This document shows, piece by piece, positions 1,458 through 14,264 of a stretch of 64,000 nt of DNA; positions within the stretch are counted from its first letter, which is position 1; every line of letters starts with the position of its first letter. Source of the DNA: Roseiflexus sp. (GTDB lineage Bacteria; Chloroflexota; Chloroflexia; Chloroflexales; Roseiflexaceae); the NCBI GenBank assembly GCA_025062325.1, contig JANXAL010000046.1, positions 1 through 64,000 on the forward strand, given 5' to 3'. The position numbers were made by a program, and so were the translations under genes. The notes below the pieces were generated by a model. That model made no database searches, had not been told where the DNA came from, and saw only the letters and a list, made by a program, of their open reading frames with translations.

Positions 1458-4031
1458 ATGACCAGAGCCTTTCACACCATCGCCATTCCGCATGACGACA
1501 TCCTCGAAGGCCGGTTGACGCTCGACGTCTTCGCCGCCGATCTGTGGGAGGTCTACCACGGTCGGGGACCGGAGGAGTACCGCGACCCGAACCTGTTCTT
1601 CCAGAAGACATACCTCACCGACGGGCTGCGCCACCTGTTCGAGGTGGTGGAGCAACGGCTGCGCGGGCAGGGCGGCGATCCGGTCATTCAGATGCAAACG
1701 CCGTTTGGCGGCGGCAAGACCCATGCCCTGATCGCGCTCTACCACAAAGCGCGCGAGTGGGGCGCGCGCACGGTGGTCATCTCCGGCACGCCGCTGGCGG
1801 GCGACGCGACGCTCTGGGGGCTGATGGCAGAGCAGTTGACCGGCTTCCGCTCCGGGTTTGCCGGGCAGACCGCGCCGGGCCGTGATGCGCTGCGCGCGCT
1901 GCTCGAACCGCATCAACCGGTGCTGATCCTGATCGACGAGGCGCTGGAGTACATGGTCAAAGCAGCGGGCGTCTCCGTGGGCGCCACGACGCTGGCAGCG
2001 CAGACCCTGGCGTTTATGCAGGAACTGACCGAAGCCGCAAGCGCGCTGGAACGGACGGTCCTGGTGATTACGCTGCCATCCAGCACGCTGGAGCATTACG
2101 ACGAGCATGCCACCCGACTCTTCGAGCAGTTGAAGAAGATCAGCGGGCGCGTCGAGAAAATCTTCACCCCGGTGCAGGACGACGAAGTGGGCGCGGTGAT
2201 TCGCCGTCGCCTGTTTGCCAGCGTCAAGGAGCAGGAAGCGACGCAGATTATCAACGCCTTTGTGGATCGCGCCGTCCAGGAGTCGGTCATCGCCTTCGGC
2301 GAGGAGAGCGCCGCCTACCGCGAGCGTTTCCGGCAGACCTACCCGTTCCTGCCCGAAGTGGTGGACGTGCTCTACCACCGCTGGGGCAGCTTCCCGACGT
2401 TTCAGCGCACGCGCGGCACGCTGCGCCTGCTGGCGCTGGTGGTGCATGCCTTGAAGCAGCAGAGCCTGCCGTATATCTCGTTGGGATACTTCGACCTGGG
2501 CAACCAGGAGATTCGCCGCGAGTTGCTGAAGCACATCGGCAACGAGTACGACAGCGTTGTGGCCGCCGACATCACCGGCGCCGAGGCGGGCGCGGCGAAA
2601 GTCAACCGCGAGATCGGCAAATCGTACCAGGGATTGCGGCTGGGCGAGCGCGTGGCCACGACGATCTTCCTGTACTCGCATGTGGGCGGGGGCGGCGAGT
2701 CTGGCGCGACGCTGAACGAGATCAAGCGCCAGAACCTGGCAGGCGACGCGCCAGCCAGCGTGGTGGCGGAAGTGGTGCAGAAACTGAGCAGCCGTCTGCT
2801 CTTCTACCTGCACGAACAGGGCGGGCGGTACGCTTTTTCCACCACCCCGAACCTCAACCGCGCCATCACCGTGCGCATGGAGAACCTGACGCCGGAGCAA
2901 CTGGAGCGGGCTGAACGGGAGGCGCTGCAGCAACAGGCGGGCGGGCGGAGGATGAAGACCTTCCTCTGGCCCTCCAACCCTGCTGACATTCCCGACGACG
3001 AGTCGCCGAAACTGCTGATCGTCCGGGAAGCCGACCAGCAACGGATGCTGGAGTTCGTCCGCACCAAAGGTCAGACGCCGCGCGTGCACCGGAACACGCT
3101 CTTCTTCCTCGCGCCGCTGCCTGCCGAGCGCATCGCGTTTGAACGCCTGCTGCGCCGCCACCTGGCGATCACGGAGCTGAGGAACCAGAAGACGCTGGCG
3201 CTAACCCCCGAACAGCGCCAGACGCTGGAGCGTGATGCGAAACAGACCGGGCGCGAGGTGCAGGAGCAGATCGGGCATCTCTACCGCCAGCTCTACCTGC
3301 CGACCGCCGACGGGTTGACGAACATCGATCTGGGCATCCCTACCTACGGCGCGGCGCAGGAGCTCGATGCGCGCGTGTACGAACGGCTGCGCAGCGAAAA
3401 CCGGCTGATCGAACGGCTGGCGCCGCTGGTCATCAAAGAACGCTACCTCGCCAACCGTGCGTTCGTCGAGACGCAGCAACTGGCGGAGAGCGGCTCGCGC
3501 ACGCCGGGCGAGGCGCTGGCCATCAACCGGCGCGTATGGGAAACCAGCATTGCCGAAGGGGTGCGGCAAGGATTGTTCGGTCTGGGAGAACTGGACGAGC
3601 ACGGACAACCGCGCTGTCTCTTCTTCAAGGAGGAGCCATCGGTCAGCCTGACGGGCCGGGAGGCGCTCATCCGCGCCGACATCTGCCAGGCGCAGCGCAG
3701 CGTTCCGGCGCAACCGCAGGGCTACCCGGCGCCGTCCTCGCCGTCTCGCGCCATCAACGACCGCGGCATATCGCCGGAGCGTTCTGACTCCCCTGCCCCT
3801 CAGCCGACCGGAGCGCCGCCTGTGGCGCACCCGCGGCTGCGCCTGCAGTTCACCGTGCCGAAGGGCAAGGTCTCCAGCCTGATGGGGGTGCTCAACTACC
3901 TGCAAACCAGGTATGGCCGCATCGAAATCACGCTGGAGTTGAGCGAGGGTTCAATCACCGATCAGGAGCTGGAAGACCGGGTGCGCGAAGCCTTCCGGCA
4001 GATGGGGGTTCATGTGCAGATTACTTATTAA
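1458..4031 (+). CDS. DUF499 ATPase (defence-island type)
   Basis: An 857-residue P-loop ATPase of the DUF499 family. The Walker A motif TPFGGGKTHAL has its lysine at residue 87, and the Walker B motif is VLILIDEALEY about 70 residues later. The phrase LFFQKTYLTDGL near residue 50 and the long helical middle are also typical. The C-terminal 65 residues form a conserved alpha/beta domain (FTVPKGKVSSLMGVLNYL) after a Pro-rich linker. DUF499 proteins occur with DUF1156 methylases in anti-phage gene clusters; they probably act as the nucleotide-driven effector or remodelling component, but the biochemistry is not established. The start at ATG 1458 has AAGGA 6 bases upstream. Spacing from DUF1156 is unusual because GxxExxY and repeats intervene. 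Confidence 0.9.
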   Translation: MTRAFHTIAIPHDDILEGRLTLDVFAADLWEVYHGRGPEEYRDPNLFFQKTYLTDGLRHLFEVVEQRLRGQGGDPVIQMQTPFGGGKTHALIALYHKAREWGARTVVISGTPLAGDATLWGLMAEQLTGFRSGFAGQTAPGRDALRALLEPHQPVLILIDEALEYMVKAAGVSVGATTLAAQTLAFMQELTEAASALERTVLVITLPSSTLEHYDEHATRLFEQLKKISGRVEKIFTPVQDDEVGAVIRRRLFASVKEQEATQIINAFVDRAVQESVIAFGEESAAYRERFRQTYPFLPEVVDVLYHRWGSFPTFQRTRGTLRLLALVVHALKQQSLPYISLGYFDLGNQEIRRELLKHIGNEYDSVVAADITGAEAGAAKVNREIGKSYQGLRLGERVATTIFLYSHVGGGGESGATLNEIKRQNLAGDAPASVVAEVVQKLSSRLLFYLHEQGGRYAFSTTPNLNRAITVRMENLTPEQLERAEREALQQQAGGRRMKTFLWPSNPADIPDDESPKLLIVREADQQRMLEFVRTKGQTPRVHRNTLFFLAPLPAERIAFERLLRRHLAITELRNQKTLALTPEQRQTLERDAKQTGREVQEQIGHLYRQLYLPTADGLTNIDLGIPTYGAAQELDARVYERLRSENRLIERLAPLVIKERYLANRAFVETQQLAESGSRTPGEALAINRRVWETSIAEGVRQGLFGLGELDEHGQPRCLFFKEEPSVSLTGREALIRADICQAQRSVPAQPQGYPAPSSPSRAINDRGISPERSDSPAPQPTGAPPVAHPRLRLQFTVPKGKVSSLMGVLNYLQTRYGRIEITLELSEGSITDQELEDRVREAFRQMGVHVQITY

Positions 4032-9186: not shown

Positions 9187-9540
9187 TGCGCATTCTGATT
9201 GTAGAAGATGAAATTGATCTTGCGCGCGCTGGCGCGGGGATTGCGCCAGCAGGGTTATGCCGTAGACATCGCCGCAGATGGCGAAGCAGGATGGGAAGCG
9301 GGAGAGGTTCACGAGTACGATCTGGTGATCCTGGACCTCAACCTGCCGGCAATGGATGGACTGGAGGTGTGTCGCCGCCTGCGCGCCTGTAAGCCGGAGC
9401 TACTCATTTTGATCCTGACGGCTCGCGGTCGGCTCGAAGACAGGGTGACCGGATTGGATCTTGGCGCGGATGATTATCTGGTCAAGCCGTTTCATTGGTA
9501 TATTGAGACAATCGCCGGGGTCGGATACCGATCGATCCCG
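9187..9540 (+). pseudogene. Broken OmpR-type response regulator
   Basis: The start MRILIVEDEIDLAR at 9187 is in a different frame from the continuation LARGLRQQGYAVDIAADGE. A missing GC dinucleotide in the GCGCGCGC run near 9224-9230 explains the shift. The receiver domain then reads normally through the phospho-acceptor VILDLNLPAMDG and the LTARG and GADDYLVKPF motifs. Immediately after KPF the text jumps to ETIAGVGYRS, the last strand of a winged-helix domain, so about 90-100 residues of linker and DNA-binding domain are deleted. Both lesions support a dead gene. Confidence 0.85.
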
Positions 9541-9550
9541 AACGAGAGCA

Positions 9551-9775
9551 ATGAAACAGCGCATTCCGCACGATGTGCAGGCGACTCCCCTTCAATCTCT
9601 TCCCTTGCGCTGGCGATTAACACTGTGGGTGGCCAGACTGGTTCTGGTTTTGGGAGTCGGACTGGCGATTTTCATCTTCGTGCGGGTGAAGAGGCTTCCA
9701 GAGCGTCTGAGCCTCTCTGCTCGACAGGCGAGATCCGTGCAATCAATGGCGTCGCGCTCGAATCCAGCTACCTGA
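9551..9775 (+). pseudogene. N-terminal fragment of a sensor histidine kinase
   Basis: A frame starting at ATG 9551 gives a hydrophilic leader followed by one strong membrane segment (WVARLVLVLGVGLAIFIFVR), as at the start of a sensor kinase. It follows the response regulator remnant in the usual order. After about 45 residues the similarity stops and the frame ends at 9775 with no sensor, HisKA or ATPase domain. Assignment rests on position and the membrane segment only. Confidence 0.5.
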
Positions 9776-10135: not shown

Positions 10136-10167
10136 AAATCCGTCGCATCCGCGTGTATCCGTGTCCC
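10136..10167. repeat. Family 1 repeat, right arm only
   Basis: A solitary right arm (ATCCGTGTAAATCCGTC... ending ATCCGTGTCCC) lies upstream of the photolyase gene. No matching left arm is present on the left side, so this is a decayed or half unit. Confidence 0.8.
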
Positions 10168-10231: not shown

Positions 10232-11770
10232 ATGAACGACTCACCGATTACCGTCTGGATTTTGGGCGATCAGTTGCTCCGCGCGCACCCGGCTATCGAG
10301 GCGGTCGAGGCGCGGGTGGGGCGGCAGGGTATGCGCATTGTGCTGGTGGAGAGTGATGCGCGGATCGCGCAGATGCCCTACCAGCGCAAGAAGATCGTCC
10401 TGATTCTCAGCGCCATGCGCCACTATGCGGCGGCGCTGCGCGAGCAGGGGTATCTGGTTGACGAGGTGCGCGCGCCGTCGTTCGTCGAGGGGTTGCAGCG
10501 CCACGTCGCGCAGCACCGGTCGCAGCGCCTGGTGACCATGGCCGCCGCCGAGTATGAGACGCGCCGTTTCCAGCACGATCAGCTCAGCCAGGCGCTCGGC
10601 ATTCCGGTTGAGGTGCTGCCCAATACCCAGTTTCTCACCGGTCGGCGCAATCCATTCCCCGATGTCGAACCGTCGCAGCGCGTGATCATGGAGCGCTTCT
10701 ACCGCGCGATGCGCCGCCATTTTGACGTGCTGCTCGCACCGGATGGCTCACCAATTGGCGGCGAGTGGAACTTCGACCGGCTGAACCGCCGTCCGCTGCC
10801 GCGCTCGGTGGCGCCGCCTCCGCCGCTGCGTTTCGAGCCGGATGCAATCACACGCCAGGTGATGTCCGAAGTCGAGGCGCGCGGCGGCGGTGTCGGCACG
10901 ACTGCCGGGTTTGCGCTCGCCGTCACCCACGCGCAGGCGGAAGCGGCGCTCGCCGATTTTATCACCCATCGCCTGGCAGCGTTCGGACCCTACGAAGACG
11001 CGATGAGCGCCGAGCATGATGTGCTGTTTCACTCGATGCTCTCTCCGTACATCAACATCGGTCTGCTCGAACCGTTGCAGATGGTGCGCGCCGCTGAGGA
11101 AGCGTACCGCGCCGGCGCCGCTCCGATCCAGTCGGTTGAAGGCTTCGTGCGCCAGATCATTGGCTGGCGCGAGTACATCTACTGGCAATACTGGCGATTA
11201 ATGCCCGGCTTGCGCGACGCCAACGCCTGGAACGCCACGCGCCCGCTGCCGCGCTTCTTCTGGGACGGCGAAACTGACATGCGCTGCCTGCGCCACGTCA
11301 TCAAACGCGCGATTGCAACTGGCTACACCCACCACATCGAACGCCTGATGGTCGTCTGCAACTTCTGCCTGCTGGCAGGAATCCGTCCTTCAGAGGTGAA
11401 CGATTGGTTTCTGGCGCACTACATCGACGCCTATGACTGGGTGATGCCGCCAAATGTGATTGGCATGGGGCTGAACGCCGACGGCGGGTTGACAGCGACC
11501 AAACCGTATATCGCCTCGGCTGCGTACATCAACAAGATGAGCGATTACTGCAGCACGTGTCGGTACAACCCGAAGCAGCGCGTTGGACCGGACGCCTGCC
11601 CATTCAATACGCTGTACTGGAATTTTCTGATTCATCACGAAGCGACGCTACGCGCCCACCCACGGCTTGGTCCGGCAGTGCTGGGGCTAGCGCGGCTCAG
11701 CGAATCCGAGCGTGCGGCAGTAACACGGCAGGCTGAGGCGCTGTTAGAGGGGTTAGGGATTGGGGGTTAG
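10232..11770 (+). CDS. FeS-type photolyase (prokaryotic (6-4) photolyase, PhrB/CryPro family)
   Basis: A 512-residue member of the deoxyribodipyrimidine photolyase-related family. It begins with the antenna domain (VWILGDQLLRAHPAIE) and continues into the FAD-binding helical domain with ATGYTHHIERLM. Four cysteines fall at residues 352 (DMRCL), 440 and 443 (CSTC), and 456 (DACPF). The spacing is the same as the [4Fe-4S] ligands C350, C438, C441, C454 described for Agrobacterium PhrB, so it should bind the same cluster. It repairs (6-4) photoproducts by light in that family. It is followed one base later by a short photolyase gene, suggesting one transcript. The start is ATG 10232. Confidence 0.93.
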   Translation: MNDSPITVWILGDQLLRAHPAIEAVEARVGRQGMRIVLVESDARIAQMPYQRKKIVLILSAMRHYAAALREQGYLVDEVRAPSFVEGLQRHVAQHRSQRLVTMAAAEYETRRFQHDQLSQALGIPVEVLPNTQFLTGRRNPFPDVEPSQRVIMERFYRAMRRHFDVLLAPDGSPIGGEWNFDRLNRRPLPRSVAPPPPLRFEPDAITRQVMSEVEARGGGVGTTAGFALAVTHAQAEAALADFITHRLAAFGPYEDAMSAEHDVLFHSMLSPYINIGLLEPLQMVRAAEEAYRAGAAPIQSVEGFVRQIIGWREYIYWQYWRLMPGLRDANAWNATRPLPRFFWDGETDMRCLRHVIKRAIATGYTHHIERLMVVCNFCLLAGIRPSEVNDWFLAHYIDAYDWVMPPNVIGMGLNADGGLTATKPYIASAAYINKMSDYCSTCRYNPKQRVGPDACPFNTLYWNFLIHHEATLRAHPRLGPAVLGLARLSESERAAVTRQAEALLEGLGIGG

Positions 11771-11771
11771 C

Positions 11772-12584
11772 ATGTCTTCAAACATGCGCCGTGATTTCGC
11801 CAGCCGCGATGAGTTAATCGACTATCTGCGCCGTGAGTTTCCGCAGGCAGCAGCGCGCAGCGGTGAGGTGAGCGCGACTCGCGGCGGGCGACGGGAAGCG
11901 GAGGCGCGTCTCCAGCGCATCGATCCGCAGCGTTACGCCGCTACACGGAATTACCTGGACGGAGCAGTCACGCATCTGTCACCCTACATCCGCCACGGCG
12001 TCCTCAGCCTGGCGGAGGTGCGCGACGCGGCGCTCAGCCGGGTGCGTCGCCCTGCCGACGCCGCCAAACTGGTGAGCGAACTCGGCTGGCGCGACTACTG
12101 GCAGCGTCTCTACGAACGTCTTGGCGATGAAATCTGGCGCGACCAGGAGCCGTATAAGACCGGTTACCGCGCCAGTGACTACGCCTCTGAGCTGCCAGAC
12201 GACATCATTGAAGGGCGCACCGGGCTGGCATGCATTGACGCATTCAGCCGCGACCTGCGCGCTACCGGCTACCTGCACAACCACGCGCGCATGTGGCTGG
12301 CAGCCTATGTGGTACACTGGCGTCGCGTGGCGTGGCAGGCAGGCGCGCGCTGGTTTCTCGAACACCTGCTCGACGGCGACCCGGCGAGCAACAATCTGTC
12401 GTGGCAGTGGGTGGCGAGCACGTTCAGCCACAAGCCATACATCTTCAACCGCGAAAATCTGGAGCGTTTCACCAACGGCATCTACTGCCGCACGTGCCCG
12501 CTCTACGGGCGCTGCGATTTTGAAGGGACCTACGAAGAGTTGCACCGGCGACTCTTTCCGAACGCAACCGGCAATGCCGGGTAA
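11772..12584 (+). CDS. Antenna-less short photolyase/cryptochrome-like FAD-binding protein
   Basis: A 270-residue protein that contains only the C-terminal FAD-binding helical domain of photolyases: YLDGAVTHLSPYIRHGVLS, ELGWRDYW, DAFSRDLRATGYLHNHARM and DPASNNLSWQW. The alpha/beta antenna domain is absent. The protein has exactly four cysteines, at 154, 239, 242 and 248. Cys154 (GLACIDAF...ATGY) aligns with Cys352 of the preceding FeS photolyase, and C239/C242/C248 mirror its C-terminal trio, so a [4Fe-4S] cluster is plausible. ATG 11772 is one base after the upstream stop. Repair or photoreceptor activity is inferred, not shown. Confidence 0.88.
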   Translation: MSSNMRRDFASRDELIDYLRREFPQAAARSGEVSATRGGRREAEARLQRIDPQRYAATRNYLDGAVTHLSPYIRHGVLSLAEVRDAALSRVRRPADAAKLVSELGWRDYWQRLYERLGDEIWRDQEPYKTGYRASDYASELPDDIIEGRTGLACIDAFSRDLRATGYLHNHARMWLAAYVVHWRRVAWQAGARWFLEHLLDGDPASNNLSWQWVASTFSHKPYIFNRENLERFTNGIYCRTCPLYGRCDFEGTYEELHRRLFPNATGNAG

Positions 12585-12588
12585 GACG

Positions 12589-13575
12589 ATGGGTTTTTAT
12601 ACCTTGCGCACGGAGCGTAACGCCGAACAGCTTGATGCTGTGACCCGCCTGAATGTTGCGGACCTGATCGCCGCGCTTAAGCTCGATCACATTCGGCGCG
12701 GTCGTCGTCTGCTGGAACTGATCTGCTGGCTCCCGGCGCGCCGCTTTGCCCACCAGGTCCTGGCCTACGAACAGATGGTCGGCTCGTGCGGTCTACACGT
12801 CGGTGCTTCGTGGATCGTGCACACCTTCGCCCGTCGACTTGAAATCTATCGAGCGGAATACGTGCCGCGGCGCGGTTCGCTCCTGGTGCTCTCGAACCAT
12901 CCGGGGATGTCGGATGCGATGGCGTTATTCGTTGCGCTCTCGCGTCCCGATCTGAAAGTGATCGCCGCTGAACGCAAACTGCTGCGCCTGCTGCCGAATA
13001 TCAGCAGCCACCTGGTGTTCATCCCGGAAGGCGAGGGCGAAAGCCGCGGGCGGATGAGCGGCATGCGCACCATTGCAGCGCATCTGCGGCGCGGCGGCGC
13101 GGCGCTGATCTATCCCGCTGGCAGGATCGAACCCGACCCGCTGGTCATGCCCGACGCCATCGACGCACTGGCGCACTGGTCGGAAAGTGTGGCCCTCTTT
13201 GCACGGTTGGCGCCGGAGGCGCTGATATTGCCGGTGGCAGTCGGCGGCACGATCTCGGCTGCCGCGCTGCGCAACCCGATACTCCGTCTGTACCGTCAAC
13301 GCCGCGACCGCGAATGGGCAGCAGCGACGTTACAGGTGCTGATCCCTGCCTATCGACCGCCGGTCGTGCGCGTCGTGTTCGCCGAGCCATTCCGGGCTGC
13401 CAGCCTTGCAGAACTGGGCGATCCTCCCAATATTATGCGCGCCATCACCAGGCGCGTCGCCGACGCGATGCGGTTCATGCAGGCGCCGGATCGGACGACT
13501 GTCACCCGGAAAGGAGCAGCAGCCATCAATGGCGCCATTGGCGCCTCCGAGAGTAGCACGCTCGCCAGTCGCTGA
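12589..13575 (+). CDS. PlsC-like lysophospholipid acyltransferase
   Basis: A 328-residue protein of the LPLAT superfamily. The catalytic H-x4-D motif is NHPGMSD, followed after about 40 residues by FIPEGEGE and then IYPAGRIEPDP. The typical product would be an acylated glycerolipid, but the substrate is not indicated. An alternative ATG at 12574 overlaps the end of the short photolyase gene; neither site has a strong Shine-Dalgarno sequence. It is co-directional with the photolyases, though a link to light repair is only positional. The last 30 residues are Ser/Thr/Ala-rich. Confidence 0.82.
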   Translation: MGFYTLRTERNAEQLDAVTRLNVADLIAALKLDHIRRGRRLLELICWLPARRFAHQVLAYEQMVGSCGLHVGASWIVHTFARRLEIYRAEYVPRRGSLLVLSNHPGMSDAMALFVALSRPDLKVIAAERKLLRLLPNISSHLVFIPEGEGESRGRMSGMRTIAAHLRRGGAALIYPAGRIEPDPLVMPDAIDALAHWSESVALFARLAPEALILPVAVGGTISAAALRNPILRLYRQRRDREWAAATLQVLIPAYRPPVVRVVFAEPFRAASLAELGDPPNIMRAITRRVADAMRFMQAPDRTTVTRKGAAAINGAIGASESSTLASR

Positions 13576-13618: not shown

Positions 13619-13714
13619 ACACGGATTTTCGCGGATCGAGACAGATTGACACGGATTGATCGCTTTCCAAACCGAATCCGTGGAAATCCGTCGCATCTGT
13701 GTGAATCCACGTCC
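13619..13714. repeat. Family 1 hairpin repeat, diverged unit
   Basis: Left arm ACACGGATTTTCGCGGAT and a right arm ending TGAATCCACGTCCC enclose a short spacer. It is more diverged than the units near the DUF499 locus. A CTTTGTGCCTTTGCACC stretch (family 4) follows at about 13739. Confidence 0.8.
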
Positions 13715-13808
13715 CTTTCAGGCGTGAAAACACGAAATCTTTGTGCCTTTGCACCTTTGTGTGCGCTTATTTGAACAATATCGGCTGCGAGCATCATTTG
13801 GAGAAACC

Positions 13809-14264
13809 ATGACACCCAACCAATTCACCCGCCCCATTGTCTGGATACACGGCGATTGCCTGAATCCCTACGGACCGGCGCTTCAGGCGTATCCTGGCGC
13901 GCCGGCAATCTGGGTCTGGGACGATGCCTTGCTCGAAGAATGGCGGATCTCGCTCAAGCGGATCGTCTTTATGTACGAATGTCTACTGGAACTGCCGGTC
14001 GTCATCCGGCGCGGCGATGTAGCAACCGAAGTGCTGGCGTTCGCCCGCGAGCACGCTGCCGACGGGATCGCTACAGCGTCCAGCCCCAGTCCGCGCTTCC
14101 GCGCAATCTGCGACCGTCTGCGCAATGAGCTGCCTGTCGCCGTGTTGCCCGTTGAACCATTCCTGGCATACACCGGACGCCTGGACCTTCGTCGTTTTTC
14201 GCGCTACTGGGCGACGGCGGAGAAGTACGCCTTCGGGCAGAAGCCGCTCTTCGACGACCAGTGA
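13809..14264 (+). CDS. Photolyase antenna-domain-like protein (alpha/beta domain only)
   Basis: A 151-residue protein resembling only the N-terminal Rossmann-like domain of photolyases: IVWIHGDCLNPYGPAL, then AIWVWDDALLEEWRISLKR, LPVVIRRGDVATEVLAFA, and a strand pair ending LPVAVLPVEPFL. There is no FAD-binding domain. ATG 13809 is chosen because GGAGA lies 6 bases upstream. It lies 1.2 kb after the antenna-less photolyase with an acyltransferase between them, so the two may form one enzyme split into two chains. This is inference. It may instead have its own ligand. A family 1 repeat separates it from the acyltransferase. Confidence 0.72.
   Translation: MTPNQFTRPIVWIHGDCLNPYGPALQAYPGAPAIWVWDDALLEEWRISLKRIVFMYECLLELPVVIRRGDVATEVLAFAREHAADGIATASSPSPRFRAICDRLRNELPVAVLPVEPFLAYTGRLDLRRFSRYWATAEKYAFGQKPLFDDQ

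Follow-up and report, generated by a model that had tools for sequence, protein, structure and literature searches.

What kind of enzyme is encoded by a short photolyase gene that begins 1 nt after the end of an iron-sulphur photolyase gene, and whose product carries four cysteines and no antenna domain? This question is raised by a locus in a stretch of 64,000 nucleotides from Roseiflexus sp., referred to as a whole as the window. According to the best explanation found, the short protein (SPL) would be the catalytic, FAD-bearing subunit of a split CPD photolyase of the SPL/Phr4 kind, probably holding a [4Fe-4S] cluster and served by the Phr5 protein in trans. A probability of about 0.6 is given to this reading.

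The gene cluster

As listed below, four genes form a tight cluster on the forward strand.

10232 to 11770, forward strand: FeS-BCP, a prokaryotic (6-4) photolyase of the PhrB family, 512 aa, with ligands C352, C440, C443 and C456
11772 to 12584, forward strand: SPL/Phr4 (P0001), FAD domain only, 270 aa, with PF03441, a photolyase fold in the AF2 model and 80 orthologous loci
12574 to 13575, forward strand: open reading frame of a PlsC-type acyltransferase (PF01553, 5.1e-8)
13809 to 14264, forward strand: Phr5, predicted photolyase antenna-type alpha/beta domain, 151 aa (PF00875 in the family, fold from AF2)

The first ATG of the acyltransferase (12574) overlaps the SPL stop codon, and 233 bases separate the acyltransferase from phr5. 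The open frame of phr5 reaches upstream to 13728, and the ATG at 13809 is preceded by a GGAG sequence resembling a ribosome-binding site. The upstream enzyme, recognised as an FeS photolyase in an earlier note made from the letters alone, is by its sequence a genuine FeS-BCP, with PF04244 at 4e-56 in Pfam and matches to 8ijy (8.9e-138) and to 4dja, PhrB (2.6e-121). For the SPL, PF03441 was the sole Pfam match (3e-26, residues 101-223), and the PF04244 (DPRP) N-terminal domain of its neighbour was absent in this search.

The AF2 model of the SPL has a pLDDT of 90.8 and a pTM of 0.87, with values above 90 in the cysteine region. Photolyases were matched throughout by Foldseek and VIA-align, and the alignment to 4dja extends to residue 479, beyond the Fe-S ligands of 4dja. 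A Z of about 18 is reached by FeS-BCPs and class I photolyases alike, and the fold search was therefore discarded as proof of kinship between the SPL and FeS-BCPs. The predicted model and its structural matches establish the fold and not the cluster.

The order SPL, acyltransferase, phr5 is common to genomes of the same genus and to one locus from another genus of the same family (L120). The three rows with this order form one clade in a quick SPL tree with long branches and weak deep support. No acyltransferase was found at the 80 orthologous SPL loci. In another genus (L127-L132, about positions 590-1910), a related acyltransferase of 37-39% identity stands just before phr5, and the SPL gene lies further away. 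The acyltransferase is read as a lineage-specific insertion without known link to repair, and it is probably outside the repair system.

Two other features of the surroundings were observed. A short intergenic repeat around AAATCCGTCGCATC is present in 5 copies in the window, against 0 expected from shuffles; its sites include 707-819, 10136-10155 and 13684-13703, and copies stand directly upstream of the FeS-BCP gene and of phr5. At 9208-9775, a response-regulator receiver domain passes into an unrelated reading beyond the phosphorylation-site region and then into a short sensor-like fragment, resembling a two-component pair with an internal deletion.

The four cysteines of the SPL

The SPL contains four cysteines in total, which the earlier note had matched to the four ligands of the upstream enzyme, regarding the metal site as seemingly kept. 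Their codons, and the frequency of cysteine in each column among 81 SPL sequences, are as follows.

12231 to 12233, forward strand: C154 codon, predicted Fe-S ligand 1, pairing with C352; Cys in 78/81
12486 to 12488, forward strand: C239 codon, predicted Fe-S ligand 2, pairing with C440; Cys in 77/81
12495 to 12497, forward strand: C242 codon, predicted Fe-S ligand 3, pairing with C443; Cys in 77/81
12513 to 12515, forward strand: C248 codon, predicted Fe-S ligand 4, pairing with C456; Cys in 76/81

When the profile of the 81 SPL sequences was aligned with that of 7 FeS-BCP sequences (HMM-HMM), a probability of 97.7 and an E-value of 1.6e-12 were obtained, and the four cysteines paired one to one. 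All four columns remained paired after the cysteines had been replaced by alanine; after masking as X, C154 and C248 remained paired and the CxxC slipped by a few residues. Given these controls and the conservation of 76-78 of 81 per column, a chance alignment of cysteines is unlikely. The match suggested earlier is thus upheld at the level of profiles, and so is the expectation that orthologues conserve these residues.

A wider comparison assembled 101 sequences with all four cysteines, and even distant Chloroflexota SPLs of about 50% identity have kept the set. The spacing of 84, 2 and 5 residues is found in 76 of the 101, with a loop of 3-7 residues between the third and fourth cysteines, one truncated row aside. 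This last spacing is 5 in the SPL compared to 12 in the neighbouring FeS-BCP and 12-15 in published FeS-BCPs (PMC3204975). The SPL chain ends 22 residues past C248.

The exceptions are also informative about the site. Three relatives (L051, L065, L079) have lost all four cysteines and one (L077) retains C154 only, so that the C-terminal three were lost together in four relatives. A shared metal site would be expected to disappear as a whole in this way, and the claim of a retained site gains from it as well as from the homology. All four relatives retain the phr5 neighbour and most of the FAD and lesion residues. Since SPLs devoid of the cysteines also have phr5, there is no functional tie between the cluster and the antenna. 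From the sequence comparisons, the four cysteines of the SPL most likely bind a [4Fe-4S] cluster where FeS-BCPs have theirs. In PhrB, mutants of the Fe-S cysteines were insoluble.

That they might instead bind zinc or another metal, or be structural, is considered very improbable. Four conserved cysteines with a CxxC can bind zinc, and the shorter loop between the third and fourth of them would fit such a role; however, they are homologous one to one with known [4Fe-4S] ligands in the same fold, and SPLs are described as having an FeS cluster in PMC9649867.

The separately encoded antenna-type protein

The antenna had been thought gone in the earlier note. This holds for the SPL chain, in which no antenna domain is present, but not for the genome, as an antenna-type gene stands at 13809-14264 and its relatives accompany SPL genes almost everywhere. 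In the window, phr5 is not immediately adjacent to the SPL gene; it lies 1.2 kb downstream, behind the acyltransferase gene. When the open reading frame 13743-14264 was compared with the SPL loci by tblastn, matches were obtained at 64 of 80, nearly all of them no more than a few hundred bases beyond the SPL gene on its downstream side and one at a distance of 4.4 kb. At seven loci, phr5 is in frame with SPL in a single open reading frame. For loci without a nearby phr5, a genome-wide check detected the gene elsewhere in 14 of 15 cases; the sole checked locus without it (L039) is from a MAG in which the SPL gene is at a contig end. Altogether, for 78 of the 79 SPL loci checked, phr5 was next to the SPL gene, joined to it in frame or located elsewhere in the genome; this count leaves out locus L008.

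A survey of 301 Chloroflexota genomes gave a similar result. With a cut-off of at least 200 bits for the SPL match, phr5 was present in 18 of the 18 genomes with SPL. Only phr5 was found in one genome (G070), and a short SPL match without phr5 in another (G260). The co-occurrence in the 301 genomes has a Fisher p of 5e-28, a value inflated by related genomes; counted by genus, both genes exist in eight and phr5 only in one. The arrangement of the two genes varies among lineages: in-frame SPL-Phr5 fusions occur in several of them, on Deinococcus plasmids the two are either fused or encoded as overlapping pairs, and the two genes are unlinked in many filamentous cyanobacteria. Separately, certain SPL genes of Chloroflexota fall into two frames (L101, G118) or have one TGA inside the part that was matched (L098, L100); phr5 stays adjacent in these cases.

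The window Phr5 alone gave no significant Pfam match. In its family, PF00875 was matched by 35 of 48 members, at best with 1.4e-5, and the family profile also matches full-length photolyases in their N-terminal part, one of them at G000:C3. In the AF2 model (pLDDT 89.4) the protein forms an alpha/beta domain; N-terminal domains of photolyases rank first among its structural matches, with Z up to 12.7, and universal stress proteins follow with about 10. The model thus predicts a photolyase antenna fold for Phr5. As to a chromophore, 8-HDF was considered and set aside: cofH, the one gene searched for in this respect, was not matched anywhere in the genome at E 1e-3, which makes 8-HDF in Phr5 unlikely.

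Substrate, rival readings and published relatives

In a phmmer alignment with the A. nidulans photolyase, E103, W106, N170, M174 and W213 of the SPL correspond to E283, W286, N349, M353 and W392, the residues that touch the CPD in the co-crystal of that enzyme. The five residues are kept in 94-101 of the 101 four-cysteine SPLs, and the asparagine at position 170 in all 101. The neighbouring FeS-BCP has His368 and Leu372 in the columns of N170 and M174, equivalent to H366 and L370 of PhrB; the SPL has Asn170 in place of the histidine. In PhrB, the change H366N to the CPD-type asparagine abolishes 6-4 repair (PMC4619345). Repair of CPDs is therefore predicted for the SPL, and these dimers are its most likely substrate as judged from the residues. 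Over its whole length, the SPL sequence resembles class I CPD enzymes more than it does FeS-BCPs. In its electron chain, W211 and W188 are kept, and Tyr137 is at the place of the third class I tryptophan.

The preferred reading can be put as a sequence of steps. The FAD domain would be stabilised at its C-terminal end by the predicted [4Fe-4S] cluster. Reduction of FAD would proceed by way of W211 and W188, Tyr137 holding the third position, and FAD would then hand an electron on to the lesion. CPDs would be taken by the SPL, and 6-4 photoproducts would be covered by the FeS-BCP encoded upstream. The antenna half would not have been lost: Phr5 would supply it as a protein of its own and most likely docks in trans on the SPL.

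Another reading regards SPL/Phr4 as a 6-4 photolyase with [4Fe-4S], as was proposed for Synechococcus Phr4 from its FeS cysteines. The ligand positions common to SPLs and FeS-BCPs speak for it. Additionally, loss of phr4 in Synechococcus RS9916 hurt UV-C survival and not UV-B survival, from which 6-4 repair was inferred by the authors, and phr4/phr5 gave E. coli protection against UV-C (PMC9426592). Against it, every or almost every SPL has asparagine and methionine where FeS-BCPs have histidine and leucine, the exchange of that histidine in PhrB is incompatible with 6-4 repair, the overall sequence lies on the class I side, and the genome already encodes an FeS-BCP next door. This reading is held to be quite unlikely, and the SPL residues speak against the published 6-4 guess for Synechococcus Phr4.

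The SPL might also work alone as an antenna-less CPD photolyase, in keeping with published descriptions of the class, and Phr5 would then be an independent protein with a mere tendency to co-occur. In known photolyases FAD is sufficient to drive repair, and phr5 is not beside the SPL gene in the window or in many cyanobacteria. The near-universal co-occurrence, the in-frame fusions of several lineages and the antenna-domain fold predicted for Phr5 make independence unlikely, and a catalytic SPL with Phr5 in trans is preferred.

A photolyase that lacks the antenna but has these cysteines, with the antenna half encoded separately, has already been published, and the suggestion of the earlier note that such an enzyme was undescribed must be withdrawn. 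The SPL class was published by Xu et al. in 2021, as cited in PMC9649867, PMC9178010 and PMC9498864, and through these citing papers the class is described as being without an antenna domain and as a possible ancestor of photolyases. The Phr4 of Synechococcus has the same set, C169, C254, C257 and C263, and in marine Synechococcus and Cyanobium the antenna is split off in Phr4/Phr5 and fused in Phr6 (PMC9426592). The window SPL resembles this Phr4 as an FAD-domain protein with the same four cysteines and spacing, the Phr4 numbers being those of the SPL plus 15, and in having the antenna-type frame separate and downstream. It differs in its Chloroflexota host, in the displacement of phr5 by the acyltransferase gene, and in residues pointing to CPDs and not to the 6-4 substrate guessed for Phr4. 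Xu et al. reportedly worked with a Rhodococcus fascians protein that has FAD and FeS and repairs CPDs. Like the SPL class, the window protein has an FAD-binding domain, and its chain contains no N-terminal alpha/beta domain; unlike the class as described, it is accompanied by a separate antenna-type gene. With FeS-BCPs and PhrB it shares the four ligand positions and the FAD-domain fold, and it is set apart from them by the missing PF04244, the short spacing between the third and fourth cysteines and Asn170 for the essential histidine.

The window SPL itself is therefore one more example of a published kind. What the survey adds is that the genome nearly always encodes the "missing" antenna at another place and that the lesion-contact residues point to CPDs; both results bear on a published hypothesis of photolyase origin and on a published functional assignment. 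On a broader reading, given about even odds, four-cysteine SPLs would not be primitive photolyases that lack an antenna; they would be the catalytic subunits of a CPD photolyase that is widespread and made of two proteins, with the antenna in trans and the halves fused, linked or dispersed according to lineage. If true, the argument for an antenna-less SPL as the ancestor of all photolyases would be weakened, and cyanobacterial Phr4/Phr5 would need another assignment than 6-4. No literature report was found of the near-universal accompaniment by phr5 in Cyanobacteria, Chloroflexota, Acidobacteriota and Deinococcota, nor of the displaced phr5, the concerted cysteine loss or the CPD residue argument; these are weak negatives, as subscription literature lay mostly outside the search.

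Among more distant relatives, the NewPHL proteins are comparable as FAD-domain relatives. They are single-strand CPD photolyases whose chain also carries a Z-domain at its C-terminal end; they lack the four-cysteine set, and the window SPL has no Z-domain. Inverted topology has been noted for NewPHL/SPL (PMC13274461), and the inverted order of domains is a feature of the wider group of SPL-like proteins. Compared by hhalign, the Z-domain and Phr5 gave a colinear but weak match with a probability of 20%. The Z-domain, comprising the C-terminal 150 aa or so of L159, L160 and L162-L164, may be a degenerate fused antenna domain. Finally, a Persicobacter plasmid (L161, near position 3000) encodes an SPL-like FAD domain without CxxC, and its C-terminal extension ends in an antenna-like FFAFWKK.
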